Assembly: GCA_017303935.1 (NCBI GenBank)
Contig: JAFLBD010000001.1
Span: 620,001-684,000 of the forward strand
Reading direction: 5' to 3'
Source of the DNA: Armatimonadota bacterium
Lineage (GTDB): Bacteria; Armatimonadota; Fimbriimonadia; Fimbriimonadales; Fimbriimonadaceae
Length of the DNA stretch: 64,000 bases
The position numbers and the translations under genes are program-made. Under the pieces are notes generated by a model. The model ran no database searches. It worked only from the letters and a program-made list of their open reading frames with translations, and was not told the origin of the DNA. Positions 6,737 through 62,827 of this stretch are shown piece by piece; position 1 is the stretch's first letter, and every line of letters begins with the position of its first letter.

Positions 6737-6742
6737 AAGATA
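6737..6742 (-). promoter_or_regulatory. Candidate -10 element (TATCTT) of the PagL-like gene
   Basis: On the minus strand the hexamer reads TATCTT preceded by GG and ends 11 bases before ATG 6725. No Shine-Dalgarno sequence follows, so the transcript would be leaderless or nearly so. Confidence 0.45.
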
Positions 6743-6757
6743 CCTTGTCGGAGGCGG

Positions 6758-6763
6758 TATCCT
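6758..6763 (+). promoter_or_regulatory. Candidate -10 element (TATCCT) of der
   Basis: GG followed by TATCCT ends 11 bases before the GTG start of der at 6775. It faces the -10 of the divergent PagL-like gene, leaving only 49 bases between the two start codons. Confidence 0.45.
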
Positions 6764-6774
6764 ATAGGACTCCC

Positions 6775-8121
6775 GTGGCACTCAAATTACCTACAGTCGT
6801 AGTCGTAGGTCGGCCCAATGTCGGCAAAAGCACGCTCTTCAACAGAATCGTTGGAAAGCGTGTGGCCGTCGTTGAGGACCAACCTGGTGTCACCAGGGAT
6901 AGACTCTACGCCGAAACAGAGTGGCGCGGCAAGCGGTTCCTCTTGGTGGATACCGGCGGAATCCTGTTCGGCGATGAAGACCCGTTGGTGGAGCAGATTC
7001 GCCTCCAAGCCGAAATTGCGCTGCAAGAAGCTGAAGTCGTGATCTTTCTTGTGGACTGCGTAGACGGCCTTTCGATGGGCGATCGCGACCTTGCCGATCG
7101 GCTACGTAGCGCGAAGTCTAAGGTTATGGTCGTGGCGAACAAGGCCGACAACCCAAGCCGAGAAGGGCTTGCGACCGAATTCTACGAACTCGGATTTGAG
7201 CGTGTTTTTCCGGTCAGTGGCCTGAGCGGTCGAGGAGTCGCCGACGTCCTCGATGAGATTGTTGAATCATTGCCAGAATCGGAGCCGAAGGAAGAGCGGG
7301 AAGAGATTCGGCTGGCCATCATCGGACGACCAAATGTCGGGAAATCAAGTTTGCTGAACGCGTTTACCGGAGAAACTCGGTCGATTGTGAGCAACATCCC
7401 CGGTACGACACGAGACGCGATTGACACTTTGATCGAGTATCAGAATGAGTCGTTCCGGTTGATCGACACGGCGGGAATTCGGCGCCGGGGCAAGATTCAA
7501 GGCACGGTCGAGTATTACATGGCTCTGCGGAGTACCCGGGCCGTGGAGCGCGCCCAATGCTCGTTGCTCGTCATCGACGGCGACGAAGGGTTAACGGACC
7601 AAGACAAGCGGGTTGCGAAGATCAGCCACGATCTCGGCCGAGCCTTGGTGATCGCTGTCAACAAGTGGGACAAGAAGGAGCCACCAGACGGGTGCCCCCG
7701 CACCAAATCGGTCGAAAAGAAGGCGATGGAAAAGCGGATTCGGGATGAACTGCCGGATTGCGACTATGCGCCGATCGTGTTTACAAGTGCAATCGAAAGT
7801 GCTGGGCTCGAGCCGGTGCTGGATGCAGTCTTGTATAGCATCGACAACTGGATGTTCCGGATTTCGACCGGCCAGCTGAACCGACTGATTCAAGAAGCAG
7901 CGTTTCGACGGCCTTACACTAGCAAGGGCCGAGCCTTGAAGATTTACTACTCGACTCAGGTGACGACGAGTCCTCCGACGTTCCTGCTGTTTGTGAACGA
8001 TCCAGACACGATGCACTTTAGCTACAAGCGCTATTTGGAGAATCAGATTCGGAAGCAATACCCATTGCCTGGAACACCGATTCGAGTGTTTGTGCGAAGT
8101 AGCCATAGCAAGGACGAATAG
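6775..8121 (+). CDS. der: Ribosome biogenesis GTPase Der (EngA)
   Basis: The tandem-GTPase protein acts in 50S ribosomal subunit maturation. Two complete G domains are visible: the first opens with GRPNVGKSTLF and DTGG, the second with GRPNVGKSSLLN and DTAGIRRRG with NKWD, followed by a KH-like C-terminal domain with YYSTQ. The 448-residue length is typical. I chose GTG 6775, giving the usual short N-terminus before the first P-loop, with AGGA five bases upstream; the TTG at 6745 precedes the putative -10 element and would be untranscribed. It begins a run der, grpE, glmM. Confidence 0.95.
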   Translation: MALKLPTVVVVGRPNVGKSTLFNRIVGKRVAVVEDQPGVTRDRLYAETEWRGKRFLLVDTGGILFGDEDPLVEQIRLQAEIALQEAEVVIFLVDCVDGLSMGDRDLADRLRSAKSKVMVVANKADNPSREGLATEFYELGFERVFPVSGLSGRGVADVLDEIVESLPESEPKEEREEIRLAIIGRPNVGKSSLLNAFTGETRSIVSNIPGTTRDAIDTLIEYQNESFRLIDTAGIRRRGKIQGTVEYYMALRSTRAVERAQCSLLVIDGDEGLTDQDKRVAKISHDLGRALVIAVNKWDKKEPPDGCPRTKSVEKKAMEKRIRDELPDCDYAPIVFTSAIESAGLEPVLDAVLYSIDNWMFRISTGQLNRLIQEAAFRRPYTSKGRALKIYYSTQVTTSPPTFLLFVNDPDTMHFSYKRYLENQIRKQYPLPGTPIRVFVRSSHSKDE

Positions 8122-8170
8122 CCCCAATTTGGGTTCAATTTACTGTTATTTGACGTAGAAATTTAGAAGA

Positions 8171-8728
8171 ATGCAGATGCCAGAAGACATGACCAGCATT
8201 GAAACTGAACAGGCCTTTCAAGTGATTGAAGAGGTCGACGACGAACTTGGCGAATTTGACGACGACCTTTCGAGATTGTCGGAAGTAGAAGCCGAGCGAG
8301 ATCAACTTCGCGAGCAATTGATGCGCTCGCTCGCCGACTTACAGAACTTTCGGAAGCGCGCTGCACAGGAGCAAGAAAGCTCCCGGCGGTACTCCAACGA
8401 GGAGTTCATGCGCAGTTTGATCCCGGTTCTGGACAACTTTGAACGGACCGTTGCTTCGCTTTCCGCAGGAGCCGACCCAGCCGCAATTTTGCAGGGCATC
8501 ACGATGGTTAAAAAGCAGCTTCAATCGGTGCTTGAAAGCAACTCGATGACTCGGATTCCTGCCGTTGGTTCGCACTTTGATCCAGAGATTCACGACGCGA
8601 TCGCCGTCATTGAAACTACTGAATTTGAACCTGACACTGTTGTGGATGAAATCGAACCCGGGTACACGCTGTTTGGAAGAGTACTGCGGCCAGCACGGGT
8701 CCGGATTGCAAGGGCGCCAAGCGAATGA
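8171..8728 (+). CDS. grpE: Nucleotide exchange factor GrpE
   Basis: GrpE is the ADP-release co-chaperone of DnaK. The 185-residue protein has an acidic N-terminus, a long coiled-coil helix (about residues 30-80, with LADLQNFRKRAAQEQE) and the C-terminal beta-domain ending GYTLFGRVLRPARVRIA, the conserved family end. ATGs at 8171, 8177 and 8189 are all in frame; AGAAG just before 8171 is spaced better for 8177. Its last codons overlap glmM by ATGA, so the two are probably coupled. dnaK and dnaJ are not in the window, which is unusual for grpE. Confidence 0.93.
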   Translation: MQMPEDMTSIETEQAFQVIEEVDDELGEFDDDLSRLSEVEAERDQLREQLMRSLADLQNFRKRAAQEQESSRRYSNEEFMRSLIPVLDNFERTVASLSAGADPAAILQGITMVKKQLQSVLESNSMTRIPAVGSHFDPEIHDAIAVIETTEFEPDTVVDEIEPGYTLFGRVLRPARVRIARAPSE

Positions 8729-21608: not shown

Positions 21609-21611
21609 GGC

Positions 21612-22008: not shown

Positions 22009-22530
22009 TCAGTAAGTAATGAGTGAGTCGACGGTGTAGCCCAAAAGGTTCTTGCGTCCTTCCAGAAATTCAAGTTCAACCATGAACCCGATGCCACAGA
22101 CGTTGCCATTCAAGCGCTCGACGAGCCGTGCGCTCGCAGCAGCAGTGCCGCCGGTCGCCAACAAGTCGTCAACGATGTAGGCTCGTTGCCCCGGGTTGAT
22201 CGAGTCGGTGTGCATTTCGATAGTGTTCGTGCCGTACTCGAGCGCATATTCCTCGGTGACTCGCTCGTAGGGAAGTTTGCCCAGTTTGCGAGTCAGTACA
22301 AAGGGAAGTCCCAAACTCATTGCGATTGGCACCCCAAAAATGAATCCGCGGCTTTCGATCCCAACGATGACATCTGGTTGATGTTGACGAGCCAACGCCA
22401 CCAGGCCGTCAATGGCTTCGGCAAAGGCTGCCGGGTGTTGAAGAACAGGGGTGATGTCTTTAAACATGATCCCTGGCTTCGGAAAATCGGGCACATCCCG
22501 AATCAAAGAATGCGCAAGATACTCGCTCAT
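22009..22530 (-). CDS. apt: Adenine phosphoribosyltransferase
   Basis: Salvages adenine to AMP with PRPP in the cytoplasm. The PRPP-binding loop VDDLLATGGTAAA and the N-terminal IRDVPDFPKPGIMFKDITPVL are diagnostic; 173 residues is normal. It opens a minus-strand operon and is divergent from the ferredoxin gene with just 37 bases between the start codons. A -10-like TATCAT ends nine bases before the ATG and no ribosome site is present, so its mRNA may be leaderless. Confidence 0.96.
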   Translation of the reverse strand: MSEYLAHSLIRDVPDFPKPGIMFKDITPVLQHPAAFAEAIDGLVALARQHQPDVIVGIESRGFIFGVPIAMSLGLPFVLTRKLGKLPYERVTEEYALEYGTNTIEMHTDSINPGQRAYIVDDLLATGGTAAASARLVERLNGNVCGIGFMVELEFLEGRKNLLGYTVDSLITY

Positions 22531-22539
22531 TTCGGGGGC

Positions 22540-22545
22540 ATGATA
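22540..22545 (-). promoter_or_regulatory. Candidate -10 element (TATCAT) of apt
   Basis: Read on the minus strand it is GGG then TATCAT, ending nine bases before ATG 22530. The transcription start would fall within a few bases of the start codon. Confidence 0.5.
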
Positions 22546-22553
22546 CCCTACGG

Positions 22554-22559
22554 TATGCT
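22554..22559 (+). promoter_or_regulatory. Candidate -10 element (TATGCT) of the ferredoxin gene
   Basis: GG then TATGCT ends eight bases before ATG 22568 with no Shine-Dalgarno between. Its -35 region would lie over the apt -10 and the apt start codon. Confidence 0.5.
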
Positions 22560-22567
22560 AGCGGCTT

Positions 22568-22891
22568 ATGCCAAAGCACTCAATTGAGGTTGTTGGATTC
22601 GGCACATTTGAAGTCGAAGCCGGAAAGAAATTGGTGAAAGCCATCGAAGAAAATGGCGTTGACATCAGCCACCGATGCGGGGGAAATGCGCGATGCACAA
22701 CTTGCAACGTGAAATTCCACTCAGACGAGCCAGAGATGGGGCAGGTGGAACACGATTCGCTCGAAGAAGACGGCGTCCTCGGTCAATTTAGGCTGAGCTG
22801 CCAGATTCGAGTGGATCGGGATATGAAGGTCGAACCGCTGACCTTATGCTCAGCAAAGGGCTGGACTCCAGGCGAGGATGTCGAAGACTGA
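22568..22891 (+). CDS. [2Fe-2S] ferredoxin
   Basis: The 107-residue protein has the plant-type cluster motif RCGGNARCTTC (Cys-x5-Cys-x2-Cys) and the fourth ligand in RLSCQIRV, with GFGTFEVEAGKKLVKAIEENG before it. It should carry electrons in the cytoplasm; the spacing suits the vertebrate/adrenodoxin-like or bacterial general ferredoxins, and the redox partner cannot be told. It overlaps the following peptidase gene by 14 bases. Confidence 0.9.
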   Translation: MPKHSIEVVGFGTFEVEAGKKLVKAIEENGVDISHRCGGNARCTTCNVKFHSDEPEMGQVEHDSLEEDGVLGQFRLSCQIRVDRDMKVEPLTLCSAKGWTPGEDVED

Positions 22892-25077: not shown

Positions 25078-25096
25078 GCCAATCAAGATGTCGGGG

Positions 25097-25102
25097 TATC
25101 CT
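25097..25102 (+). promoter_or_regulatory. Candidate -10 element (TATCCT) of accD
   Basis: GGGG then TATCCT ends eight bases before ATG 25111 and no ribosome site lies between. Confidence 0.5.
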
Positions 25103-25110: not shown

Positions 25111-25923
25111 ATGCTCTTCGGACGCGGAAGATCCTCCGAACTCGATGGCGCTTTTGTGCAGTGTTCTGGTTGCAAAAAGACGCTATTCCGCCGCGAATTC
25201 GAAGAGAATTTATGGGTCTGTCCCCAATGCGGCCACCATCATCGCCTGACCCATCAACAGCGAATTGAAATCACCTTTGACGAAGGTAGCTTCGTTGAAC
25301 AAGATTCTGAACTCCAGAGCCTAGATCCACTTCAATTTCCAGATTATCGCGACAAGCTCGAAGGCGCGATGAAGAAGACTGGGATCAATGACAGCATCAT
25401 CTGCGGAATGGCCACCATCGACGGCCGAAAGGTCAGCGCGGCTGTTGCAGATTTTCACTTCATGGGCGGTTCCATGGGGAGCGTTGCAGGTGAGAAGATC
25501 ACCCGCACCCTAGAGCGAGCCGCTGACCAAAAAGTGCCTGCAGTGATCTTTTGCGCCTCAGGTGGAGCGCGCATGCAAGAAGGCTTGCTCAGTTTGATGC
25601 AGATGGCAAAGACCACTGCCGCAGTTGGGCGGTGTCGATCTGCCGGAGTACCGTTTATCGCCGTCTTTACTGATCCCACCATGGCAGGTGTGTTGGCGTC
25701 TTACGCTAGCGTAGCGGACATCATCATTGCCGAGCCTCGCGCCCAAGTTGGATTCGCCGGGGCACGTGTCAGCGCCCAGGCCCAAGTGAGTAAGGTGCCG
25801 GATGATTTTCAGAAGGCGGAATTCGTGCTGAGAAGCGGCATGATCGACAAGATCGTCGAGCGACGGATTCTCAAGAGCACTTTGGGCACGCTAGTCAAGA
25901 TCTTCTCGGAGGCGGTGAACTAA
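25111..25923 (+). CDS. accD: Acetyl-CoA carboxylase carboxyltransferase subunit beta
   Basis: Forms the carboxyltransferase with AccA, making malonyl-CoA. The N-terminal zinc ribbon is intact (VQCSGCKKTL and WVCPQCGHHH), followed by the crotonase-like core with FCASGGARMQEG and TDPTMAGVLASYA. The 270-residue length is normal. It starts accD-accA and overlaps accA by one base (TAATG). Confidence 0.96.
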   Translation: MLFGRGRSSELDGAFVQCSGCKKTLFRREFEENLWVCPQCGHHHRLTHQQRIEITFDEGSFVEQDSELQSLDPLQFPDYRDKLEGAMKKTGINDSIICGMATIDGRKVSAAVADFHFMGGSMGSVAGEKITRTLERAADQKVPAVIFCASGGARMQEGLLSLMQMAKTTAAVGRCRSAGVPFIAVFTDPTMAGVLASYASVADIIIAEPRAQVGFAGARVSAQAQVSKVPDDFQKAEFVLRSGMIDKIVERRILKSTLGTLVKIFSEAVN

Positions 25924-32208: not shown

Positions 32209-33151
32209 ACAGGGTCATCGTGACTTTACTGAGGAACCTTGGATCGTCAGGGTTTAGTCCTCGAGCGCGAGCCGCGAGTAACGCGATCCATTGCCCAAAG
32301 AAGATTTCGGCAATTGGGGAATCTGCGGCATCCGAATACTCCGGAGCGCTGACCACCAAGCACCCTTGTGCTTCGATGTCCTCTGGCCGGGGACCAAAGA
32401 CCAAAGCGCAAGTGCCGTGACCCGCAAGAGCTTTGGGCCCGTGCTGGAAGTCCGCCGTCGAATAACTCTTGCAAGGCAACAGCGCACACTCCATGAGTTT
32501 CAGGGCGGTTTCTTGCGCAGTGCTGAAGTTGTATCCGCGGGCCAGAGAGAATAGGATCGTGGATCGGAGCACCGGTCCGAGCGCTTCTTGGGCAGCCTCG
32601 CGAGTCAAGTTCGCCCAACTGCTTGAGGGAAGGTTCGGCGCAGGAAGGTCTGCCCCCAGAGCGCGTACAAGCTGGTACATCGCCAGAAGGGAAGAAGAAT
32701 ACGTTTTGGTCGCGGCAACGGCTTGCTCTGTTCCGGCTTCAAGGAGAAGGCAGTGCTCCGCTTCTTCGTGCATCCTTGATCCGGCGGTGTTCGTGATGGC
32801 TAAAGTCGAATGCCCCTGCGCCTTCATCCTGGCGAGAACCTCGGCCACATCTGGTGCAGCCCCGGATTGAGAAATACCGATCGCCAGACATTTCGGATAC
32901 TTGATGTCACTCTTGTAGCGCGTCAGTGTGGATGGTGCGGCAAGCACGACTGGAATTCGAAGGTGAATCTCGATCAGGTACCGGGCATAGAGTGCGGCGT
33001 TGTCGCTAGAACCCCGCGCGGCAATCAGCACCATCTCGTACTTTTGTCCGCCAACCATCGATGAAAGCTGGTCAAGGTAACCGGAAGATCGCGACGCGAG
33101 CAAATCAGGTTGCGACAAGATCTCAGATTCCATCAGGTTGCCAAGTTGCAT
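32207..33151 (-). CDS. SIS-domain sugar-phosphate isomerase/deaminase, GlmS-isomerase-like
   Basis: The 314-residue product contains two SIS domains: LIAARGSSDNAALYARYL and ISQSGAAPDVAEVLARM in the first, FSLARGYNFSTAQETALKLMEC and the catalytic-loop region STADFQHGPKAL in the second, with the C-terminal DPRFLSKVTMTL resembling GlmS. The glutaminase domain of GlmS is absent, so glucosamine-6-phosphate deaminase (NagB-II type) or another aminosugar isomerase is likely. It could feed the amino-sugar pool used by GlmM. Confidence 0.82.
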   Translation of the reverse strand: MQLGNLMESEILSQPDLLASRSSGYLDQLSSMVGGQKYEMVLIAARGSSDNAALYARYLIEIHLRIPVVLAAPSTLTRYKSDIKYPKCLAIGISQSGAAPDVAEVLARMKAQGHSTLAITNTAGSRMHEEAEHCLLLEAGTEQAVAATKTYSSSLLAMYQLVRALGADLPAPNLPSSSWANLTREAAQEALGPVLRSTILFSLARGYNFSTAQETALKLMECALLPCKSYSTADFQHGPKALAGHGTCALVFGPRPEDIEAQGCLVVSAPEYSDAADSPIAEIFFGQWIALLAARARGLNPDDPRFLSKVTMTL

Positions 33152-33157
33152 AGGTTC

Positions 33158-33163
33158 ATTTTA
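33158..33163 (-). promoter_or_regulatory. Candidate -10 element (TAAAAT) of the SIS-domain gene
   Basis: On the minus strand TAAAAT ends six bases before ATG 33151, with no ribosome site. Confidence 0.5.
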
Positions 33164-33174
33164 GCGGCAAGCGG

Positions 33175-33180
33175 TATGCT
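33175..33180 (+). promoter_or_regulatory. Candidate -10 element (TATGCT) of the histidine kinase gene
   Basis: GG then TATGCT ends six bases before ATG 33187. Together with the SIS -10 it occupies most of a 35-base divergent gap. Confidence 0.5.
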
Positions 33181-33186
33181 GTTGCC

Positions 33187-37444: not shown

Positions 37445-38913
37445 TCGCCTACTTTTGCCCAAGGACTGCTGTAGTTTGGTGGTTCCTTTGTGATGACCAC
37501 ATCGTGCGGATGGCTTTCGAGCAGGCCGGCGTTGGTGATTCGGATAAATGTCGCGGAATCCTGAAGCTCTTTAAGGCTATTTGCACCGCAATACCCCATT
37601 CCCGATCGCAAGCCACCCATCATCTGAGCCACCGTTTCGCTCAGAGGGCCCTTGTACGGAACTCGGCCTTCGATACCTTCTGGCACAAGCGCGGCAGGAT
37701 TATCCTTGATCTGGAAGTAGCGGTCTGAAGACCCCTCTTTCATCGCCGAAATCGAACCCATTCCACGATAAACTTTGTAGGCGCGGTTTCGATAAATTTC
37801 GATGTCGCCGGGCGATTCATCGCATCCGGCAAACATGTTGCCCATCATAACGCTCGTTCCGCCGGCGGCCAACGATTTAACCAGATCGCCACTGAATCGA
37901 ACACCTCCGTCTGCGATGGTTGGAATTCCCAAATCCTTCGCGGCCTTCGCACAATCCTGAACAGCCGTGAATTGGGGAACTCCGATGCCAGCGACGACAC
38001 GAGTCGTGCAGATCGAACCTGCGCCGATGCCAACCCGAAGTCCATCTGCGCCGAGCTTGGCTAGGTCCTTGACGCCTTGAGCCGTCGCCACCGAACCGGC
38101 GATCACCTTGAGCTCAGGAAGCTTGTCTTTGAGCATTTTGAGGCAATTCATCACGCCTGCTGAATGGCCGTGTGCGGCGTCAATCACGATGAAATCGACC
38201 CCTGCTTCCAACAGCGCCTTGGCGCGCTCATACGGATCGCGAAGTGCGCCGATCGCCGCACCGACGATCAACCGCCCCTTTTCATCCTTTGTAGCCATCG
38301 GATGCCGCTTGACCTTGAGGATGTCTTTGATCGTGATCAGGCCCATCAGATGGCCGTGATCATCAACGATTGGCAGCTTTTCGATTCGGTGTTCGGCGAG
38401 GATCGCCTCAGCTTGCTCCAAGGAAGTGCCAACGTGGGTGGTGATCAGCTTCTTCTTGGTCATTCGCTCGCGAATCGGCTTGCTGAAATCGGTTTCAAAT
38501 CGGATATCGCGATTAGTGAGGATGCCGACCAATCGATTGGCGTTGTTGACAATCGGCACGCCGCTGATGTGGTAGCGATCCATAAGTGCAATCGCTTCAG
38601 AAATCGTCTTTTCGGGCGAGAGCTTGATCGGGTTCGTAATAACGCCGTGTTCCGACCGCTTGACCCGATCCACTTCTTCGGCCTGACGGTCGATGGACAT
38701 ATTGCGATGGATTACGCCGACGCCGCCTTCTCGGGCAATGGCGATTGCCAGCCGGCTTTCGGTCACTGTATCCATTGGCGCGCTGACGATTGGAGCGCGC
38801 AGGGTGATACCGGGCAAAAATTGGGTTGAAGTATCAACCTCGCTGGGAAGGACTTCGGTCCGGTTGGGAATGAGGAGTACGTCGTCGAAGCTAAGTCCTT
38901 CTTTGAAATCCAT
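37441..38913 (-). CDS. guaB: Inosine-5'-monophosphate dehydrogenase
   Basis: Oxidises IMP to XMP, the committed step to GMP. The barrel domain has the catalytic-Cys loop [15 protein letters not shown], and two CBS domains are inserted (about 95-205; for example [23 protein letters not shown]). [19 protein letters not shown]-like and GMGYCGA segments complete the 490-residue enzyme. A CATAAT element ends five bases before ATG 38913 and there is no ribosome site, so a leaderless message is likely. Confidence 0.97.
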
Positions 38914-38918: not shown

Positions 38919-38924
38919 ATTATG
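38919..38924 (-). promoter_or_regulatory. Candidate -10 element (CATAAT) of guaB
   Basis: On the minus strand CATAAT ends five bases before the guaB ATG. Confidence 0.45.
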
Positions 38925-40980: not shown

Positions 40981-41129
40981 TTGATCCTCCAATGTCATTC
41001 AATTAGACGAGCCAAAGCTCGAGCTGTTCAGACAATACGGAATTATTGGCAAAAACATCTCCCATTTAGACCCAAAGTCCCAGGTTCGGGTTGAAATGGG
41101 ACCGAAGTTAGCCGGAACGAAGGCCTAGG

Positions 41130-41135
41130 TACAAT
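41130..41135 (+). promoter_or_regulatory. Candidate -10 element (TACAAT) of the DUF1385 gene
   Basis: GG then TACAAT overlaps the first ATG of the frame (41134) and ends seven bases before the GTG at 41143, which argues for GTG as the start. Confidence 0.45.
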
Positions 41136-41142: not shown

Positions 41143-42165
41143 GTGCCAAAGGGCGAATATCTGCAGTACGGCGGGCAAGCAATCATCGAAGGAGTGATGA
41201 TGCGGTCGCCAAAGTTTTTTAGCATTGCGTGCCGTGCACCAAATGGCACGATCGTCCGCACCACGGAAGCGATCGAAAAGACTTGGATCGGAAGGCAAAA
41301 ATGGCTTCAAAAGCCGTTTTTGCGAGGAACTTTTGCGCTTCTGGATTCGATGGCGCTGGGGATCAAGGCGATGCGCTTCGCCGCGCAGGTTCAAACTGAC
41401 CCCGAACACGGCACAGCTGAATCGAACAAGGAAGCAGAAAAGCTGCCAACAAAGGCAGTGCAAGATTTGGTGATTGCTGGCACGATGATCGTGTCCTTAG
41501 GGATCGGCATTCTGGTTTTCAACGTGATGCCAAACGCTCTTGCAGAGATGTTGCGAGCGGCCAAGGTCACCAACGGCACTCTGATCAACTACGTCAGCGA
41601 ACTGATCAAGGTCATCATTTTCTTCGCTTACATTTACGGCATTAGCTTCATGCCAGAGATCAAGGAAGTGTTCCGATACCACGGTGCCGAACACAAAGCA
41701 ATCAATGCGATGGAGCGCGACCAGGAATTGTCGATCGACAATTGCATCCAGATCACGCGAATTCATCCGAGGTGTGGGACCTCATTCGCGGTCATCGTGC
41801 TTCTGGTCGGATTCCTTTTGATGCCATTAGTGCCGCGCTATCCGATCACTGGGCACCAAGGAAACTTCTTTATTGATGTTCCGGTTCGCATCGTGATCGA
41901 GCTTTGTTTGTTGCCGTTGATTGCGGGCGTGAGCTATGAACTACTGCGACTCGCTGGAAAGATGCGCGATGAAAAGTGGGTGAACATTGCCTTTAAGCCT
42001 GGCATGTGGACCCAATTGATCACGACAAAGGAGCCAGCAGAAGAGCATGTGGAAGTCGCGATCGCTGCGCTCAACGGCGTGTTGGATGCCGAACAACGAG
42101 AATCCGGTGCCGTAACAGGCCTAGAAATTTTGCCTAAATCGAGCTACACAAAGAAAGGTGACTGA
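41143..42165 (+). CDS. DUF1385 (YqhQ-like) membrane protein
   Basis: YGGQAIIEGVMMRSP, FLRGTFALLDS, RYHGAEHKAINAME and the ITRIHPRCGTSFA motif identify this widely conserved family of four- to six-helix membrane proteins with a probable metal-binding His/Cys cluster. Function is not established; in many bacteria it is near translation or cell-envelope genes. I chose GTG 41143 because the ATG at 41134 is inside the putative -10 element and neither has a ribosome site. 35 bases later comes the ECF sigma gene. Confidence 0.88.
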   Translation: MPKGEYLQYGGQAIIEGVMMRSPKFFSIACRAPNGTIVRTTEAIEKTWIGRQKWLQKPFLRGTFALLDSMALGIKAMRFAAQVQTDPEHGTAESNKEAEKLPTKAVQDLVIAGTMIVSLGIGILVFNVMPNALAEMLRAAKVTNGTLINYVSELIKVIIFFAYIYGISFMPEIKEVFRYHGAEHKAINAMERDQELSIDNCIQITRIHPRCGTSFAVIVLLVGFLLMPLVPRYPITGHQGNFFIDVPVRIVIELCLLPLIAGVSYELLRLAGKMRDEKWVNIAFKPGMWTQLITTKEPAEEHVEVAIAALNGVLDAEQRESGAVTGLEILPKSSYTKKGD

Positions 42166-44283: not shown

Positions 44284-44289
44284 TATACT
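44284..44289 (+). promoter_or_regulatory. Candidate -10 element (TATACT) of the PBP1A gene
   Basis: TATACT ends nine bases before GTG 44299 with no ribosome site; it would allow wall-synthesis genes to be expressed apart from the sigma module. Confidence 0.45.
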
Positions 44290-44298: not shown

Positions 44299-46494
44299 GT
44301 GGCTACTCGAACGTCTCCAGCTCCGCGGAAGGTGATCACCCGCCGTAAGTCCAGCCCCTGGCGGAAGACAAAGATTGTGCTGTCGGTGGTATTTATGCCG
44401 CTGGCCATCGCAGTGATGTTGGTGGGGCTCGCGTTCTCGTTTGAGCTCAACAAAGCTGCCGAAAAGATCCCGAAGCTCGCGACCATCATGGAGTCGCTCA
44501 AATCCGGACCAACTCGGATCATGAGCGCGGACGGCAAAGTACTGTACGAGAGCCTTGCTGAATACCGAATCCCGATTGAGATCGATGACGTGCCACAAAC
44601 GGTCATCAAGGCAACGCTCGCAGCTGAAGATAAGCGGTTTTACACCCATGACGGCGTGGATTATTGGGCAGTCGCACGGCAATTGGTTACAAACGTCCGC
44701 GAGAAGAGAATGGCGGGCGGCGCAAGTACGCTGACCATGCAGCTTGCAAAACGGATTTATACGAATTCGGAGCAAACCATCAATCGAAAAATTCAAGACG
44801 CTGCTCTTGCGATTGAGATTGAACGATCGTTGACCAAGAAGCAGATTCTAGAACTGTATCTGAACCAAGTTTTTTATGGATCGGGTGCGTACGGAATTGC
44901 CGCCGCCGCCAAAACCTATTTCGACAAAGACCTCGACGAACTGACCATCGCCGAGGCGGCGCTTTTGGCCCGTTGCGTACGTCGCCCGAGCGATGAAAAT
45001 CCATTCTATGATCTGAAGGCGGCGGTAGCCAACCGAAACGATGTTCTTCAAATCATGAAGGATGAGGGCATGATCACCGGGGCAGAATACGCTCAGGCAA
45101 AGTCAGAAGAAGTCCACCTCAAGAAAGCGGAAGAGCGAACGCGTTCTACCATCAAAGCGGCGCCATATTTTGTGAGCTACGTTCTGGATCAGGTTCGGAA
45201 GGACATTGGCCCGGAAGTCACTGACGGTGGCTACACGATCGAAACTACGATCAATTTGAGTCTGCAAGAGTACGCAGAAGATCGCGCGAAGAACCTTGTC
45301 GCGAACTACCGTGGCTCCGGCGTTCGAACCGCAGCAATGATGATCATGAATCGTCAAGGCGAAATCTTGGCGATGGTTGGCGGTGCAGATTATCAGCGAA
45401 ACCAGTTCAATGTGATCACACAGGGCCTGCGTCAACCGGGGTCCTCGTTCAAGCCTTTGGTCTATTCCGCTTGCTTCGAGCAAGGACTGCTTTCGCCGTA
45501 TGATCCGATTCGAGCAGACACATTCCGCGAGAATGTCGGCGGCGAAAATTGGGAAGTGGAAGGGCGTGGTGGAGTCACCACCGTCCACAGCGCAATCGCG
45601 TTTTCGATGAACGCACCAGCCGTCCGCGCCATGATGATGCTCCGGCCCAGCGTGTTTGTGCGCGGCTATGCCAGGCCCGTTTTTGGATTGTCGACGGTGA
45701 CTCAGGCGTTCCCATCCATGGTTTTGGGCGGCGTTGAAGTACACCCTATTGAACTTGCAGAAGCATATACGGTGTTCCAGCATCGCGGCGACCGCGTCAA
45801 GCCGTTCGGCATCAGCCGAGTTTTGACTTCAGACGGCAAACTCGTTCGAAAGTACGAAGCCGTGATCACTCGCAACGTCATGAGCACGGGTTCGACCGAG
45901 GACATCGACCGATGTTTGAGAGAAGTTGTGACTTCAGGGACGGGAAGTTCTGCGAGTGGCGTGCGCCGAGCGCGTGGCAAGACTGGCACCACCAACGAGA
46001 ACAAGGATGCATGGTTCGTCGGTTACACCGATAACTATCTCGCAGTCGCTTGGGTCGCCAATGAGCAATACGACGAAGAGCGAAAGCGGTGGACCTATAC
46101 GCCGATGTCCAGCTGGGTCATGGGTGGCAAAGTTCCGATTCGCCTTTGGCGCGAGGTGATGCTCCGTGCCCAATCGAAGTTTGGCGAGCCGACAGTCAAG
46201 GACACACTCGATGATGGAGACTTCAGCGCGAAGATCGATATTAACGACGAAGATGGACCAGGATTAAAGGAACGACGCCCAACTCGACCGACTGACGAAA
46301 CTCCAGAGGAAGACACACCAGCGGCTCCAGAAGAAAATCCAGTGCCGAGTGTCGATCGAGATCCGAATGAGCAACCAGCTACCGAGCCGCCGAAGCGGAA
46401 CGATCCTCCTCCGCGCAATGATCCGCCGCCTTCAAACGGTCCTGATCCGAGCCTGCCAGACGGCCCAGAAGGGCTCCCAGAAGGCCCTGGCTAA
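44299..46494 (+). CDS. Class A penicillin-binding protein 1A
   Basis: A bifunctional peptidoglycan polymerase. After a basic cytosolic tail and one membrane anchor (about 26-48) comes the glycosyltransferase-51 domain with AAEDKRFYTHDG (catalytic Glu) and GGASTLTMQLAKR, then the transpeptidase domain with QPGSSFKPL (active Ser), FSMNAP and RGKTGTTNENKDAWFVGYT. A Pro/Asn-rich tail (about 670-731) ends the protein. Translation starts at GTG 44299. The PBP2 gene follows after three bases. Confidence 0.96.
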   Translation: MATRTSPAPRKVITRRKSSPWRKTKIVLSVVFMPLAIAVMLVGLAFSFELNKAAEKIPKLATIMESLKSGPTRIMSADGKVLYESLAEYRIPIEIDDVPQTVIKATLAAEDKRFYTHDGVDYWAVARQLVTNVREKRMAGGASTLTMQLAKRIYTNSEQTINRKIQDAALAIEIERSLTKKQILELYLNQVFYGSGAYGIAAAAKTYFDKDLDELTIAEAALLARCVRRPSDENPFYDLKAAVANRNDVLQIMKDEGMITGAEYAQAKSEEVHLKKAEERTRSTIKAAPYFVSYVLDQVRKDIGPEVTDGGYTIETTINLSLQEYAEDRAKNLVANYRGSGVRTAAMMIMNRQGEILAMVGGADYQRNQFNVITQGLRQPGSSFKPLVYSACFEQGLLSPYDPIRADTFRENVGGENWEVEGRGGVTTVHSAIAFSMNAPAVRAMMMLRPSVFVRGYARPVFGLSTVTQAFPSMVLGGVEVHPIELAEAYTVFQHRGDRVKPFGISRVLTSDGKLVRKYEAVITRNVMSTGSTEDIDRCLREVVTSGTGSSASGVRRARGKTGTTNENKDAWFVGYTDNYLAVAWVANEQYDEERKRWTYTPMSSWVMGGKVPIRLWREVMLRAQSKFGEPTVKDTLDDGDFSAKIDINDEDGPGLKERRPTRPTDETPEEDTPAAPEENPVPSVDRDPNEQPATEPPKRNDPPPRNDPPPSNGPDPSLPDGPEGLPEGPG

Positions 46495-53597: not shown

Positions 53598-53641
53598 GTG
53601 CGAATTGATGCCGCTACCCCCAAGAAATTTGCTCATAACTT

Positions 53642-53650
53642 TGTCATAAT
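53642..53650 (+). promoter_or_regulatory. Extended -10 promoter of tRNA-Glu
   Basis: TGT then CATAAT ends 12 bases before the tRNA 5' end; no clear -35 is seen. Confidence 0.4.
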
Positions 53651-53662: not shown

Positions 53663-53738
53663 GGCCCGGTGGTCTAGCGGTTAGGACGCCGCTCTTTCAC
53701 AGCGGAGATCGCGGGTTCAAGTCCCGTCCGGGCTACCA
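53663..53738 (+). tRNA. tRNA-Glu (anticodon TTC)
   Basis: A full cloverleaf: acceptor GGCCCGG with CCGGGCT (first pair G-U), D arm with GGTTAGGA, anticodon stem CCGCT/AGCGG holding CTTTCAC (anticodon TTC), T arm GCGGGTTCAAGTCCCGT and an encoded CCA. Its last six bases overlap the stop codon of the converging Nif3-like gene. Confidence 0.97.
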
Positions 53739-54809
53739 AGTTTTTCCACCAAACTGAATTGGGTGCACGACGTGCCATTCGATCTCAGACATTTCCTCGG
53801 CTAGCCTTGCGCGAAGGATATTCATCGCAGGTGCCTCGGTGGCAAAATGTCCTCCCAGAATCATTGGGAATTTGGCAAATCCAGCATCCACCAGAGTCGA
53901 GTGCTTTGCTTCTCCGGTTATATAGACGTCCGCTCCTGCCTGCTTTGCGGATTGCCATTCGTCCCCAGCCGCCCCTCCGATCACCGCGACCTTCTGGACC
54001 AATTGGTCCGGATCACCCATCACTTGTGGCGCGGTTCCGAGAATACGATGCATGTTGTCGGCAAACTCTGTGAGGGAAATTGGATTTTGTAGCTCTCCGA
54101 TCCGGCCTATGGCGAGCTCCGCGCGATTAGTGAGAGGGATAAATTCATATGCAGGCTCTTCATAGGGATGCGCCGCTCGTAGTGCGGCCTCCACGGTCCG
54201 AACCGCTGCATTTGGCACCAGCATTTCCATTCGAAACTCGTTGACATGCTCCCGCTCGCCGGGCTGACCGATTGCAGGATTGGCGGACAGACTCGGCTCG
54301 AAGGTGCCTACCCCTTCAGCATAGTATGCGCACCGTTCATACTCGCCCAGCGACCCGCCGCCCGCCGCACTGATGGCATCGATGACAACATCGAGGCTCG
54401 GCTTCGGGACGAAGGTCACCAGCTTCACCAATTTGGATTCTGGTGTCACACCGAACGGCGAAACATTTTCTAGACCGAGAAGGTTGGCCAGAGTGTCGTT
54501 GACGCCACCTTGCGCGACATCCCAATTCGTATGGCAAGCGATGAAGCTCGCGCCCGACCTCGCGAGGTTCAGGAGTCGCTTGTCGCAAAGATTCTTGATC
54601 GGGTCCCAGATGATCGGGTGGTGGGCAACGACTACGGACCCGGGCCTGCACCGATCAATAACTTCCGGGGTCACATCGAGGCAGACATAGCCTTCGGCGA
54701 CTTCGTCCGACGGAGATCCGACTTGCAATCCGATTTTGTCAAACGAGAACGCAAGTCTTGACGGTGCAATTTGCTCGATCGCATTGAGGACATCGGAAAC
54801 GGTTGGCAT
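53733..54809 (-). CDS. Nif3-like dinuclear metal-centre hexameric protein
   Basis: The 358-residue protein has the Nif3/YbgI halves separated by an inserted domain (about 125-230): VVVAHHPIIW and ACHTNWDVAQGGVNDTL supply metal ligands at the N-terminal end, and VYITGEAKHS with GGHFATEAP at the C-terminal end. Members are annotated as GTP cyclohydrolase I type 2 homologues but the reaction is not settled. It has a candidate leaderless promoter and overlaps tRNA-Glu at its stop. Confidence 0.9.
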   Translation of the reverse strand: MPTVSDVLNAIEQIAPSRLAFSFDKIGLQVGSPSDEVAEGYVCLDVTPEVIDRCRPGSVVVAHHPIIWDPIKNLCDKRLLNLARSGASFIACHTNWDVAQGGVNDTLANLLGLENVSPFGVTPESKLVKLVTFVPKPSLDVVIDAISAAGGGSLGEYERCAYYAEGVGTFEPSLSANPAIGQPGEREHVNEFRMEMLVPNAAVRTVEAALRAAHPYEEPAYEFIPLTNRAELAIGRIGELQNPISLTEFADNMHRILGTAPQVMGDPDQLVQKVAVIGGAAGDEWQSAKQAGADVYITGEAKHSTLVDAGFAKFPMILGGHFATEAPAMNILRARLAEEMSEIEWHVVHPIQFGGKTW

Positions 54810-54815
54810 GAATTT

Positions 54816-54821
54816 AGGTTA
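54816..54821 (-). promoter_or_regulatory. Candidate -10 element (TAACCT) of the Nif3-like gene
   Basis: On the minus strand GG then TAACCT ends six bases before ATG 54809. Confidence 0.45.
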
Positions 54822-54843
54822 CCTTTCATAATTCAGAAGCACC

Positions 54844-57323: not shown

Positions 57324-57683
57324 TTATTTTTTGAGAAAGAGATAGCAGGCTACGCAAACCAGGAAGCCAGCGAAGATCTTGCGCATGATCGCCGGGTCTA
57401 CTCCCACAGCGATCTTAGAGCCGATGTAGGCGCCCGCGAACAACCCGAGCGCGATCCATCCGCCCTTGGCCCAGTCGATCATCTGATTGTCGTAGTAGTT
57501 CTTTACGGCGAGCAGTCCGACCGGAGCGAGGAGCACCAATAGGGAAGTGCCTTGCGCCTTTTGCTGCTGCATTTGGAACGCCAAGATCAGAAGCGGGACG
57601 ATGACGATGCCGCCACCGATTCCAAACAATCCACTTCCGACACCTGCGGCAAGCCCAATCAAAAGGCACAGAGCGATTTCCAT
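57324..57683 (-). CDS. Half-size TauE/SafE family membrane protein
   Basis: Four membrane helices in 119 residues, with LIGLAAGVGSGLFGIGGGIVIVPLL, the typical first half of the TauE/SafE (DUF81) repeat. Full family members have about 250 residues in two such repeats, so this protein must form dimers or pair with another half. The family exports sulfoacetate or sulfite and related anions; substrate unknown. It has its own -10 and starts 23 bases after trpS ends. Confidence 0.88.
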   Translation of the reverse strand: MEIALCLLIGLAAGVGSGLFGIGGGIVIVPLLILAFQMQQQKAQGTSLLVLLAPVGLLAVKNYYDNQMIDWAKGGWIALGLFAGAYIGSKIAVGVDPAIMRKIFAGFLVCVACYLFLKK

Positions 57684-57691: not shown

Positions 57692-57697
57692 AGGTTA
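57692..57697 (-). promoter_or_regulatory. Candidate -10 element (TAACCT) of the half-size TauE gene
   Basis: On the minus strand GG then TAACCT ends eight bases before ATG 57683, overlapping the end of the trpS unit. Confidence 0.45.
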
Positions 57698-57705
57698 CCG
57701 AGTTT

Positions 57706-58716: not shown

Positions 58717-59346
58717 TTAAAGCAGGATGTTCTGCAAGTAATTTCTGAGAGGACCGATGACGACCGAAACCATGCTTCGACCATCGATCACCGGCAAGAT
58801 CATGAAGATGAAGAGTGCTTGCCCGTAGGTCAAATTCCAGCGGGTCCATTTCAGGCGGTTCTGCTCATTCATAAAAGTGCCCGCAATCCACATGCCATCC
58901 AGTGGTCCGAGTGGCAAGAGATTGAAGAGGAATAGCGATATGTTGATCAGAATCCCATACGCAAAAACCAGCAACAAGATTGACATTTGACCTGGCATCG
59001 CGATCATGACGACCCTGAGCAATATGGCGTACACGATCGCCTGGATAAGATTGGAGAGTGGCCCACCGATCACCGCCCAGAAATGATCCCAGCGCGGGTT
59101 TCGCATTTTGCGAGGGTCCATCGGGACCGGCTTTCCCCAGCCAAAACCGACTCCCGCCAAGCTCGACATGATGATAAACAAGGTTCCGAAAGGATCGAGG
59201 TGCTTGAGTGGGTTCATGGTCACCCGACCATAAAACCCTGGCGTTGGGTCACCCGCCGCGTCGGCGAGCTTCGCATGGGCATATTCATGGATCGCGATCG
59301 ACAAAAGTACGATCGGGACGATGATAAACAGTGATTCTATATCCAT
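58717..59346 (-). CDS. M50 site-2 protease family membrane protein
   Basis: A 209-residue zinc metalloprotease of the short S2P class: HEYAH in the first membrane segment supplies the zinc ligands and general base, and NLLPLGPLDG the third ligand in a later helix. There is no PDZ domain. S2Ps cut regulatory proteins, such as anti-sigma factors, within the membrane; the substrate here is unknown. ATG 59346 has no ribosome site, but a -10 ends nine bases upstream. Confidence 0.9.
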   Translation of the reverse strand: MDIESLFIIVPIVLLSIAIHEYAHAKLADAAGDPTPGFYGRVTMNPLKHLDPFGTLFIIMSSLAGVGFGWGKPVPMDPRKMRNPRWDHFWAVIGGPLSNLIQAIVYAILLRVVMIAMPGQMSILLLVFAYGILINISLFLFNLLPLGPLDGMWIAGTFMNEQNRLKWTRWNLTYGQALFIFMILPVIDGRSMVSVVIGPLRNYLQNILL

Positions 59347-59355: not shown

Positions 59356-59361
59356 ATTTTA
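59356..59361 (-). promoter_or_regulatory. Candidate -10 element (TAAAAT) of the M50 protease gene
   Basis: On the minus strand TAAAAT ends nine bases before ATG 59346. The rpoD terminator lies just upstream, so the gene needs its own promoter. Confidence 0.45.
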
Positions 59362-59443: not shown

Positions 59444-60586
59444 TTAGTTCGGCGAAGGAGTAACTGAGAACCCTTGCGAGCTCAGTTCTTGTCCGATGTG
59501 CCGCAACTTCTTCATCGCGCGGAGTTCGATTTGTCGAACGCGCTCTCGAGTGACGTTGAGTGCGCTGCCCACTTCTTCCAAAGTTCGGCTGCGGCCGTCG
59601 TCGAGTCCGAATCGGAGTCGCACTACATCGCGCTCACGCAACGTCAACCGGCCCAAAATTCCATCAATCTCCTCGCGCCGGATCAGCGACCAGGTCACGT
59701 CACCAGGGGTTGGCATATTGTTGGAAGGAATGAAGTCGCCGATGCTCGAGTTGTCCTTTTCGCCAACTGGAGTTTCCAAAGAAAGTGGCTCGACCGCAAC
59801 CCGCATCATCTCTTGAACGCGGTCTGGAGACATTCCGACCTTTTCCGCAACCTCTTCAGGTGTTGGCTCCCGGTGCAATTCTTGCTGCAACTGGTTAGCC
59901 GTCTTCATCACCTTGTTGATGAGTTCAGCCACGTAAACCGGAATTCGAATCGTTCGTCCCTGGTTGATGATCGCGCGCGCAATTGCACGGCGAATCCACC
60001 ATGTCGCGTAGGTCGAGAATCGGAATCCTTTTCGCCAGTCAAACTTCTCAACAGCGCGGATCAAACCGAGATTGCCTTCTTGAATCAAGTCAGCAAGAGG
60101 GATGCCACGAGCGTTGTACTTTTTGGCGATCGAAACCACCAGTCGCAAGTTCGATTCGATCAGGTGCTGCTTGGCGTAAATGCCTTGCTTCACGATGTCC
60201 CGAATGTCGTACTCGTCAAAATCAGCGTTTGCACGGTTGAGGAGCTTGGCAAGTTCCTTGAGCTTCCCAGCTTCGGCAAGATCGCGAGCCTGAACCTTCT
60301 TTGCGAGGTCTTCTTCCTGAGCAGGAGTCAATAGGTGGGCGCGACGAGTTTGTCGCATCCACATTTCCAGCTCTTCGCCGTCATCGTGCGTGGGGGCAGC
60401 TTCGGTTTCGTCAACCTCGTCTTCAGCTTCGACGAGATCCAACAACTCGTCATCTACTGGTTCCGCGTTTGGGTCATCCACCAAAACGTGTGCAGCCGCC
60501 GAGCTGTAATTTGCTCGAGCCGCGGTTCGCACTGTAATTGGCTTTCCTCGCCGTGCGGTAGGTTGTATTCCGTTTTCTACTGCCAT
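59444..60586 (-). CDS. rpoD: Primary RNA polymerase sigma factor (sigma-70)
   Basis: Regions 1.2-4.2 are complete: region 1.2 with [14 protein letters not shown], region 2 with [51 protein letters not shown], region 3 and region 4 with [20 protein letters not shown]. The 380-residue form has a short acidic N-terminus and no large region 1 insertion, like the SigA of many phyla. It gives the -10 reader for the TANNNT promoters described here. ATG 60586 follows AAGGAA by 11 bases. Confidence 0.95.
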
Positions 60587-60740: not shown

Positions 60741-60754
60741 GCGATTTCTGTCAA
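60726..60754 (-). promoter_or_regulatory. Promoter of rpoD with consensus -35
   Basis: On the minus strand a perfect TTGACA (60754-60749), a 17-base spacer and TACTAG (60731-60726), within the palindrome TTACTAGTAA. The leader to the rpoD ATG would be about 130 bases. The remainder of the 60590-60863 gap shows no gene. Confidence 0.6.
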
Positions 60755-60863
60755 GAACTTTCTTAAAACAGGGGGCATCCAGGATAAATTGGAAGCAAGA
60801 TTCGTGCCAACAAGGTTAGACGCAAATCTTTTGTGAAAGGTTTCGGTTCCGCAATATTATTGC

Positions 60864-61916
60864 TCAGTTCCTTAGGTTCTGTACGACCTTAACCAATGCA
60901 TCCATGAGTTTGCTGGTCGAATCCAGCGTATTTTCGGGGTGAAAACTGATGCGAATTGCCCCTTTTTGATGCTGAGCTGAATATCCAAGTGCTTCCAGTG
61001 TTCGGCTTGGTTTTCCAGACTCGGCGCCGCATGCCGCTCCACTTGATATTGCAAATCCTAGATTATCGAGTTCGACAACAATCGCTTCACCCTGAACATC
61101 ATCAAATGCCAGGTGCAAAATATGCGGCGACCTCGTATGCGCCGGGTCTGTCACCCAGCCTGAAACGCCCTGCATTGCATCCAGTGCCGCGTGTCGAAGT
61201 GTCGAGAAATGGTGCAATCGTTGATCGAGTTCGTCTACCGCGAGTTGAACGGCTTTCGCAAGACCAACGATGCCGGCGACGTTGAGCGTTCCAGCGCGAA
61301 GACCAAACTCATGACCTCCGCCGAGCACCCAGGGTTGCAAATGAGTAGGGTCCTTTGCGATCAGTACGCCCACGCCTAACTGGCCGCCGAGTTTGTGACC
61401 GCCAAAGGTCGCGAAATCCACATCTTCGAGATCGAGTGGAATGTGTCCGACCGCTTGGGTGATATCGCGGTGAACCAATGCTCCCTGAAGATTGGGAGCA
61501 GAAATCACCGCGCCGGTTTCGTTGCTGACGAGCACCACACTTACAAGCCGGTGCTGGCCCTGGGTATCGACTACGTAATTACGATTTGGGAGAATCGCGA
61601 AATTCAATTCAAGACCGGGTTCTAGGACGGAGCTGTGTTCAAAGGGAGAGATTGCTCCTTCGCCGAAATTCCGAAGGATCCAATTGTTGCCTTCCGTTGC
61701 ACCAGATGTGAAAAGGACTTGTTCAGGCGCGTCAAGCCCCAAAGAAGTGGCGATTTGTTCCCGAGATGCATCCACCGCATGCCGGGCATCGCGACCGTAG
61801 GAATGGATGGAAGAAGCGTTTCCGAAATTCTCGCCCAGCCAAGGCAACATCGCCTCCCGAACTCTCGAATCGAGAGGGCAGGAGGCGGCGGCGTCAAAGT
61901 AGTTTTGGCGATTCAA
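60864..61916 (-). CDS. Cysteine desulfurase, NifS/IscS family
   Basis: Mobilises sulfur from cysteine for Fe-S clusters or thiolation. The 350-residue fold-I PLP enzyme has FDAAASCPLDSRV, FTSGATEGNNW, the PLP lysine in FGGHKLGG and the catalytic Cys in SSGAACGAESGKPSRT, though most homologues read SSGSACSS. It is short for the family (about 385-400). TTG 61916 follows TAAGG by ten bases. It lies 12 bases after sucD, so they are probably co-transcribed. No scaffold protein gene is adjacent. Confidence 0.9.
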   Translation of the reverse strand: MNRQNYFDAAASCPLDSRVREAMLPWLGENFGNASSIHSYGRDARHAVDASREQIATSLGLDAPEQVLFTSGATEGNNWILRNFGEGAISPFEHSSVLEPGLELNFAILPNRNYVVDTQGQHRLVSVVLVSNETGAVISAPNLQGALVHRDITQAVGHIPLDLEDVDFATFGGHKLGGQLGVGVLIAKDPTHLQPWVLGGGHEFGLRAGTLNVAGIVGLAKAVQLAVDELDQRLHHFSTLRHAALDAMQGVSGWVTDPAHTRSPHILHLAFDDVQGEAIVVELDNLGFAISSGAACGAESGKPSRTLEALGYSAQHQKGAIRISFHPENTLDSTSKLMDALVKVVQNLRN

Positions 61917-61928
61917 TAACGGTTGGCC

Positions 61929-62810
61929 TTAGGCCGTGACTTTGCCCATGACTTTCTTGACCAGGCTCGGGACGTCACTAGTCTGATCGGCAACGAGGGC
62001 GCCCGCAGCAAGAAGGGCGTCCACCTTGCTCTGCGGGGTACCCATGCCACCGCTGATGATCGCACCGGCGTGGCCCATGCGCTTGCCTGGAGGAGCTGTT
62101 CGGCCAGAGATAAAGCTGACCACAGGCTTGGTCATCGACTTGATGAATTCGGCGCCCTCTTCTTCGTCCGAACCACCGATTTCGCCGACCATCACGACGG
62201 CCTCAGTCTTTGGATCAGCCTCAAACATTTGGAGGACTTCTTTAAATCGGGTACCCGGAAGTGGGTCGCCGCCAACACCGACGCACGTTGTTTGACCGAG
62301 GCCGGCTTGGGTCAGCTCCCAAACGATTTCGTAGGTAAGGGTGCCAGAGCGGGAAACCATTCCGATTGGTCCGGGAGCAAAAATGTGCCCCGGCATAATG
62401 CCCATTTTGCATTCGCCCGGTGTGATGATCCCGGCGCAGTTGCCGCCAAGCAATCTCGATTTTCCGTTCTTTGCGATGATGTTCACCATGCGCTGAGAAT
62501 CCAAAATCGGGAGGCCTTCAGTGATCAAGGTGATAAACGGAACTCCAGCGTCTTCCAATTCGAGCACTGCGTCCATCGCGTACGGAGCGGGAACGAAAAC
62601 GATCGCAGCATCGGCGCCAGTTTGGCGAACCGCTTCGACTGCCGTATTGAAAACTGGAACGCCCAAATGGACTGTCCCGCCTTTGCCCGGGGTGATTCCT
62701 CCGACTACCTTCGTGCCGTAGTCAATCATCTGTTGGGTGTGGAAGGTGCCTTCGCGGCCGGTCATGCCCGAAACGAGCACTTTACTGTTCTTGTTGATCA
62801 AGATCGCCAT
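61929..62810 (-). CDS. sucD: Succinyl-CoA synthetase subunit alpha
   Basis: The CoA-binding, phosphohistidine-bearing subunit of the citric-acid-cycle enzyme. [15 protein letters not shown] at the N-terminus, [29 protein letters not shown] and the phosphohistidine loop GHAGAIIS are present in 293 residues. The partner sucC, usually directly upstream, is not there: the gene upstream is divergent. It is read towards nifS. Confidence 0.96.
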
Positions 62811-62821
62811 GGGTTTGATAC

Positions 62822-62827
62822 AGGATA
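62822..62827 (-). promoter_or_regulatory. Candidate -10 element (TATCCT) of sucD
   Basis: On the minus strand GG then TATCCT ends 11 bases before ATG 62810; no ribosome site follows. Confidence 0.45.

Follow-up and report, generated by a model that had tools for sequence, protein, structure and literature searches.

What kind of promoter stands in front of a gene when a -10-like hexamer lies almost against its start codon? This question is raised by fourteen genes in a stretch of 64,000 nucleotides (hereafter the window; positions 620,001 to 684,000 of contig JAFLBD010000001.1, assembly GCA_017303935.1) from an Armatimonadota bacterium of the family Fimbriimonadaceae. The initial annotation of the window described a hexamer, TANNNT, ending 5-11 bases before the start of each of these genes, and in most cases following GG. 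We find the GG form, GGTANNNT, far above chance expectation at gene starts across the genome. We conclude that the boxes are probably housekeeping -10 elements placed so close to the start that the transcripts would be leaderless or nearly so, and that they would be read by an unusual primary-type sigma factor encoded in the same window.

The boxes themselves are readily seen. Direct reading of the starts places a hexamer 5-11 nt upstream in all fourteen genes, and GG precedes it in ten. A sequence resembling the Shine-Dalgarno (SD) element accompanies only two, der (AGGA) and the Nif3-like gene (AAGG, touching the box). On these three counts the initial annotation was accurate. Its description of the hexamers as TANNNT has to be widened: a real -10 element does lie near many starts, but the guaB hexamer is CATAAT, and in strong boxes position -12 may be C. 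Pfam backs thirteen of the gene names and NCBIfam supplies that of Der. The boxes are as follows.

6737..6744, minus strand: GG-TATCTT, 11 nt before the PagL-like ATG at 6725 (Pfam match to PagL)
6756..6763, plus strand: GG-TATCCT, 11 nt before the der GTG at 6775
22540..22547, minus strand: GG-TATCAT, 9 nt before the apt ATG at 22530
22552..22559, plus strand: GG-TATGCT, 8 nt before the ferredoxin ATG at 22568
25095..25102, plus strand: GG-TATCCT, 8 nt before the accD ATG at 25111
33158..33163, minus strand: TAAAAT after GC, 6 nt before the SIS-protein ATG at 33151
33173..33180, plus strand: GG-TATGCT, 6 nt before the GAF kinase ATG at 33187
38919..38924, minus strand: CATAAT, with C at -12, 5 nt before the guaB ATG at 38913
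41128..41135, plus strand: GG-TACAAT, 7 nt before the putative DUF1385 GTG at 41143; an in-frame ATG at 41134 overlaps the hexamer
44284..44289, plus strand: TATACT after GT, 9 nt before the putative PBP1A GTG at 44299
54816..54823, minus strand: GG-TAACCT, 6 nt before the Nif3-like ATG at 54809
57692..57699, minus strand: GG-TAACCT, 8 nt before the half-TauE ATG at 57683
59356..59361, minus strand: TAAAAT after CG, 9 nt before the M50 protease ATG at 59346
62822..62829, minus strand: GG-TATCCT, 11 nt before the sucD ATG at 62810

The GTG starts of DUF1385 and PBP1A are putative, without confirmation from homologs. The TauE/SafE gene (57324-57683) covers only about half of the Pfam model.

Are such boxes commoner at starts than chance allows? 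Our sample of this genome comprises the window and 40 further stretches, 864 kb of 2.5575 Mb, and genes were called without any upstream signal, giving 643 coding-only starts. GGTANNNT ends 5-11 nt before 33 of these, against a mean of 3.1 and a maximum of 7 in 200 shuffles. TANNNT does so before 108 (shuffles 52.5 ± 6.6, maximum 70 in 200). A comparison with shuffled upstream sequences, of the kind that the initial annotation had proposed as its check, thus finds the enrichment, with the GG form strongest over chance. A chance origin, in which a short hexamer is met by starts chosen to fit it, has one observation in its favour: taken by itself, the window shows no significant excess of TANNNT (6 of 51 coding-only starts; shuffles 4.1 ± 1.9). 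Even there, GGTANNNT precedes 5 of the 51 starts (shuffles 0.2, maximum 3 in 1,000). For GGTANNNT, chance is contradicted by the genome-wide shuffles, by out-of-frame and antisense controls, by orthologs and by tRNA promoters, and we find it hardly credible.

The out-of-frame control compares candidate ATGs around the called starts. At a distance of 5-12 nt, TANNNT precedes 173 of 933 in-frame candidates and 60 of 1,059 out-of-frame ones; for GGTANNNT the counts are 40 of 933 and 5 of 1,059. GTG and TTG candidates give no clear spacing peak. The in-frame excess is about 120 in 621 genes, or about a fifth of genes, and this is a floor because it overlooks GTG starts, boxes having C at -12 and genes whose start was wrongly called. 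Simply counting the motif followed by ATG has low power. In the antisense control, eight fimbriimonad genomes together hold 89 sense and 6 antisense copies of GGTANNNT at 5-12 nt.

Gene context matters too. With spacers of 6-11 nt, TANNNT is found at 58 of 237 divergent genes, at 15 of 76 codirectional genes lying 26-80 nt from their neighbour, and at 14 of 164 within 25 nt of a codirectional neighbour. Four divergent pairs in the window are only 34-49 bp apart, start to start (6726-6774, 22531-22567, 33152-33186 and 54810-54843). Three of them carry two opposed boxes; in the Nif3/54844 pair the second box is assigned by the start model alone. In the 864-kb sample both genes fall in the near-promoter class in 14 of 16 divergent pairs closer than 60 bp, a count inflated by its reliance on model assignments.

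The form of the element emerges from an expectation-maximization (EM) start model with promoter and SD components. For this genome the model gives G.58 G.49 [T.61/C.34] A.90 N A.63 [A/C] T.96, with spacers of 5-12 nt and nearly nothing beyond. (Hereafter f1 denotes the organism's own family, f1-f5 the families of its order, and other codes other Armatimonadota families.) The same motif is obtained independently from f1 relatives, f2 and f17, and a weak version from f5; EM on f8 and f12 recovers no -10 near starts. Five dinucleotide-shuffled sets do not yield GG[T/C]ANA[A/C]T. Spacers spread over 5-12 nt in f1 and f2, whereas f17 has a narrow distribution with 0.82 of the weight at 5-7 nt. Strong boxes with C at -12, CA[AT]A[AC]T, the form of the guaB box, are likewise enriched 5-12 nt before ATGs of this genome (37 per 933 in-frame, 14 per 1,059 out-of-frame). 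G is enriched at -14, T at -15 is not.

The boxes near starts mostly lack both an SD sequence and a detectable -35 element. SD-like matches occur in 5 of 89 near-spaced GGTANNNT genes, compared with 325 of 1,191 genes overall. In the 171 sites assigned in this genome at least 4 of 6 matches to TTGACA occur in 18%, exactly as in the control (18%). Split by GG, the figures are 6% (control 17%) for the 54 sites with GG and 24% (control 19%) for the 117 without.

Because tRNA genes have no start codon, their promoters allow the box to be tested independently of where gene starts are called. We took the best 30 of 46 tRNA upstream regions of this genome and 15 each of the 46-50 in four others, excluding tRNAs close behind another tRNA. 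A promoter of this kind lies in the window.

53641..53650, plus strand: TTGTCATAAT, promoter box of tRNA-Glu (53663-53738), with C at -12, 12 nt before the tRNA

De novo EM on the 30 regions gives G.84 G.69 [T.65/C.33] A T A A T, and GG(G)TA also comes from 14 regions of genome G011 and 12 of G017. When the tRNA -10 is chosen without looking at -14 and -13, GG precedes it in 14 of 29 promoters here, 10 of 14 in G011 and 9 of 10 in G017, against 2 of 14 in G042 (f12) and 4 of 13 in G063 (f8). Sequences like TTGACA stand at -35 in 11 of 29, 4 of 14, 2 of 10, 8 of 14 and 7 of 13 of these promoters, respectively. A weak -35 is therefore kept at tRNA promoters and none at the near-start mRNA promoters. 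Moreover, because tRNA promoters carry the GG[T/C]A...T box, GG is part of a general -10 element and does not belong to leaderless genes alone.

Orthologous genes tell a similar story. Usable upstream footprints exist only for der, sucD, accD and the M50 protease gene; the other stretches have no orthologous start. A same-genus relative (L229) also carries GGTATTCT before accD, and a same-genus ortholog of the M50 gene has GGTAACCT at the place of the box. Among 11 der orthologs whose start could be read, GGTA...T precedes eight and is absent from L131, L132 and L186; this set leaves out a fragment (L134), a protein of 30% identity (L027) and repeats of the same genome. For sucD, GGTANNNT is found upstream of 19 of the 21 orthologs whose start is readable (the exceptions are L022 and L027), and within 12 nt of the start at none of 25 loci outside the order. 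The spacing falls into two groups, 6-11 nt in 13 orthologs and 19-33 nt in six, with none between. At least 4 nt matching AGGAGGTGA, that is, SD-like, follow the box in five of the six far orthologs; such a match occurs in three of the 13 near ones, in one of them (L012) inside the box. The gap between 11 and 19 nt fits two modes of translation, one on a leader of negligible length and the other on a leader with room for an SD sequence. GG is therefore not specific to leaderless genes: it belongs to the -10 element, and tRNA promoters and the SD-led sucD orthologs share it.

These results also bear on another explanation, that the boxes are no promoters but a translation signal in the mRNA, a ribosome site of non-SD type. 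The boxes do occupy the SD position and seem to replace the SD sequence. However, the same box stands upstream of tRNA genes, it lies 19-33 nt ahead of six sucD orthologs, five of which have their SD-like match after it, and it is rarer at closely spaced codirectional genes. We consider a translation signal very improbable.

What would read the box? The window encodes a candidate.

59444..60586, minus strand: primary-type sigma factor, the proposed reader of the GG[T/C]A box, with R, A and Y at E. coli positions 437, 440 and 455 (the stretch reads ...PVY)

Sigma-70 regions 2, 3 and 4 are present by Pfam; region 1.1 gives no Pfam hit at E 1e-5. The best matches lie on contigs mostly titled Fimbriimonadaceae, Fimbriimonadia, Fimbriimonadales or Armatimonadetes, with a few Chthonomonas. 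Where E. coli has Q437 and T440 the protein has R and A, and differs there from three aligned SigA chains. The first change is shared by the whole group: R takes the place of Q437 in 27 of 27 readable fimbriimonad loci (L004-L028, L032, L066) and in an Armatimonadetes locus (L029), L031 being unreadable and outside the count. The other 51 comparison loci have Q at 437 in every case and T at 440 in 49. According to the part of PMC2613000 concerned with these residues, replacement of T by C at -12 is suppressed in E. coli by the substitutions Q437H and T440I, and H455 and E458 have their effect on G at -14.

In a tree of 73 rows thinned from 127, a branch with 100/100 support separates sigma factors of this kind (RR type) from the rest. 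The RR type occurs in 25 of 37 Armatimonadota genomes, in families f1-f5, f8, f12, f17, f26 and f28. In the remaining genomes the best hit is of Q type in six, four have no hit at 1e-60, one Q-type hit was read in G022 and none in G045. Most RR sigmas keep E458. A locus titled Methanoregulaceae (L011) carries a fimbriimonad RR sigma, and the title does not fit. Conversely, a contig titled Candidatus Nitrosymbiomonas, an Armatimonadota name (L038), carries a Q-type sigma and was taken as misplaced, because that sigma is 91-99% identical to sigmas on ANGP1, Bacillota and unnamed bacterial contigs.

Several RR families also carry a classical QAITR sigma. In f8 it adjoins the primase gene, has regions 1.1 and 1.2, and is as well conserved as its RR counterpart (both 92-93% identical). 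In our organism the usual rpoD place beside the primase gene (G000:C3, about 511.6-513.9 kb; L003) holds a diverged, fast-evolving protein of 305 aa reading WWIRQSISR. A same-genus relative shares 91% identity with this genome in the RR sigma core and 56% in the dnaG-linked sigma. This difference in conservation suggests that the RR sigma may serve as the housekeeping sigma. With the f8 classical sigma as query, only 39-47% identity is found beside the RR sigma in G008, G009, G011, G016, G018 and G020, 53% in G003, G000 and G014, 56% in G015, and 61% in G010 and in a fragment from G006. Judged by these comparisons, displacement of the old sigma is a tendency with no clean loss. A stand-alone CarD was not found in our genome, where the only CarD-type hit lies in a 1,198-aa frame, the size of Mfd.

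How widely is the promoter form distributed? The GG form recurs in six of seven relatives sampled from the order. Counted 5-12 nt before in-frame and out-of-frame ATGs, respectively, GGTANNNT gives 7 of 179 and 0 of 199 in G009, 10 of 166 and 1 of 154 in G011, 7 of 73 and 0 of 107 in G003, 17 of 110 and 0 of 84 in G017, 4 of 97 and 0 of 119 in G018, and 5 of 104 and 0 of 112 in G020. Family f17 also has it (G033, 11 of 166 and 0 of 198; G060, 1 of 22 and 0 of 32). Elsewhere the counts are 0 of 58 and 0 of 87 in f9, 1 of 57 and 0 of 50 in f19, 2 of 73 and 3 of 74 in f26, 0 of 21 and 0 of 72 in f28, 0 of 52 and 0 of 63 in f29, 1 of 92 and 1 of 92 in f12, and 0 of 94 and 0 of 100 in f8. The trait extends across the class; in the phylum at large its distribution is patchy. 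The distant family f17 (G033; L197-L201, L243-L246) combines GG near-start promoters at 5-7 nt spacing with further sigma paralogs. SD sequences are abundant in families f8 and f12, at 67% and 57% of candidates, respectively, versus 12% out of frame. Our SD counts agree in direction with the class figures in Table 1 of PMC10783764 (Fimbriimonadia 25%, Chthonomonadetes 70%), a paper that offers no promoter explanation in the parts consulted.

The most serious competing account accepts the near-start promoters as real and takes GG and C at -12 as the ordinary extended -10 behaviour of any RpoD, the sigma residues being unrelated drift. G at -14 is indeed the classical extended -10 base, most RR sigmas retain the residue that acts on it, and tRNA promoters of f8 and f12 also favour G at -13 (10 of 13 and 8 of 14). 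Moreover, Deinococcus RpoD tolerated a T1C change of the -10 motif in the binding tests described in the relevant part of PMC12340547, and C at -12 is thus not necessarily a mark of the window's sigma. Yet the classical element is TGn, and T at -15 is not enriched here. Near-start GG is rare elsewhere: plasmid stretches of Deinococcus have a near-start TANNNT at 29 of 139 ATGs (8 of 135 out of frame), and GG precedes 4 of these 29 (1 of 8 out of frame) and 1 of 11 in actinobacterial loci, versus 90 of 298 in-frame and 6 of 113 out-of-frame in eight fimbriimonads. Q437, T440 and R441 are conserved in the phyla compared in the pertinent section of PMC8407463, as are the first two in nearly all our comparison loci. 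We judge ordinary RpoD behaviour rather improbable, though a real contender.

We therefore return to the reading given at the outset, of near-start -10 elements served by the RR sigma. The element would have the form G(-14) G(-13) [T/C](-12) A N A [A/C] T(-7), with transcription starting 6-7 nt downstream of the box. At many single or first genes the box lies so near that the mRNA would begin 0 to about 6 nt before the start codon; the spacings of 5-12 nt predict leaders of 0-6 nt. Ribosomes would then initiate on a 5'-terminal AUG. The clade-specific paralog with R437 and A440 would read the box, having presumably assumed the housekeeping role during the divergence of the ancestral rpoD linked to dnaG. 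The short-range reading by the primary sigma factor suggested by the initial annotation gains support from the unusual protein in the window, and stays at the level of a proposal.

Several results weigh against this reading. GGTANNNT has no net excess at 18-40 nt in the eight genomes (28 sense, 31 antisense). TANNNT at spacer 6-11 stands at only 14 of 151 codirectional genes more than 80 nt from their neighbour, which are often first genes; wrong starts are likely among them. The scarcity of SD-like matches in near-spaced genes is partly forced by the short space. A pyrimidine at -1, a signature of transcription start sites, occurs about as often in SD genes (61%) as in the near class (63%), and thus does not independently mark the A of ATG as +1. 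CANNNT as a whole shows no enrichment, in contrast to its strong forms. The EM gene shares of 0.29-0.35 were dropped as estimates, as shuffled upstream regions give 0.36-0.49. G006, a member of f1 sampled over 46 kb, has no GGTANNNT at 44 in-frame or 38 out-of-frame ATGs. The G010 relative of the f8 classical sigma means that the old sigma was not lost everywhere. Finally, f8 and f12 have the RR sigma and lack the GG leaderless class; the RR sigma alone is therefore not enough.

Leaderless genes of this general kind are already known, as the initial annotation noted. TA-led genes, with TANNNT about 12 bp before the start, are described for Deinococcus-Thermus and Actinobacteria in the parts consulted of Zheng 2011 (PMC3160421) and PMC12340547, which put the leaderless share at about 20% of genes in Actinobacteria and a third or more in Deinococcus. 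The fimbriimonad boxes resemble these in the near-start TANNNT above chance, the scarcity of SD and the lack of need for a -35; they differ in the GG before the hexamer, in phylum and in the sigma paralog. The Deinococcus -10-motif class is spaced mainly at 6-7 nt, whereas f1 and f2 spread over 5-12 nt. The extended -10 of E. coli (TGn) likewise has G at -14 and little or no need for a -35, but our box adds G at -13 and has no preference for T at -15, so that the T-15 G-14 pair is not found. The window sigma itself is like RpoD/SigA in regions 2, 3 and 4 and in strong conservation within its class, and unlike them in R437, A440 and Y455, in giving no region 1.1 hit and in belonging to one Armatimonadota clade. 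The clade, the GG box and the sigma link appear to be new. Our search found no literature on GGTANNNT, on leaderless genes of Fimbriimonas or on a primary sigma factor in Armatimonadota, and none treating promoters of this kind in the phylum; three papers, PMC10783764 among them, bring up both armatimonads and leaderless genes. Most subscription papers and supplements lay outside the search, and an earlier mention there is possible. In their main texts, the genome paper on F. ginsengisoli Gsoil 348, the sequenced type strain of the class (PMC4072686), counts three rpoD genes and does not use the word 'promoter', and PMC5397173 and PMC9581028 do not mention Armatimonadota.

What could this mean for the Fimbriimonadia? 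We tentatively suggest, giving the idea slightly less than an even chance, that in this class the R437/A440/Y455 paralog displaced the dnaG-linked RpoD and thereby reshaped promoters throughout the genome into the pattern GG[T/C]ANNNT, which has little use for a -35. The compact promoter may then have allowed leaderless expression on a large scale and divergent pairs with two promoters in less than 40 bp. Q437 and T440 have changed together across a whole class, beside a visible promoter change (GG and some C at -12). If the two are truly connected, the evolution of a housekeeping sigma factor, a weaker -35 and leaderless expression would be tied together in one system, and the boxes would also help to annotate gene starts better in a poorly annotated phylum.

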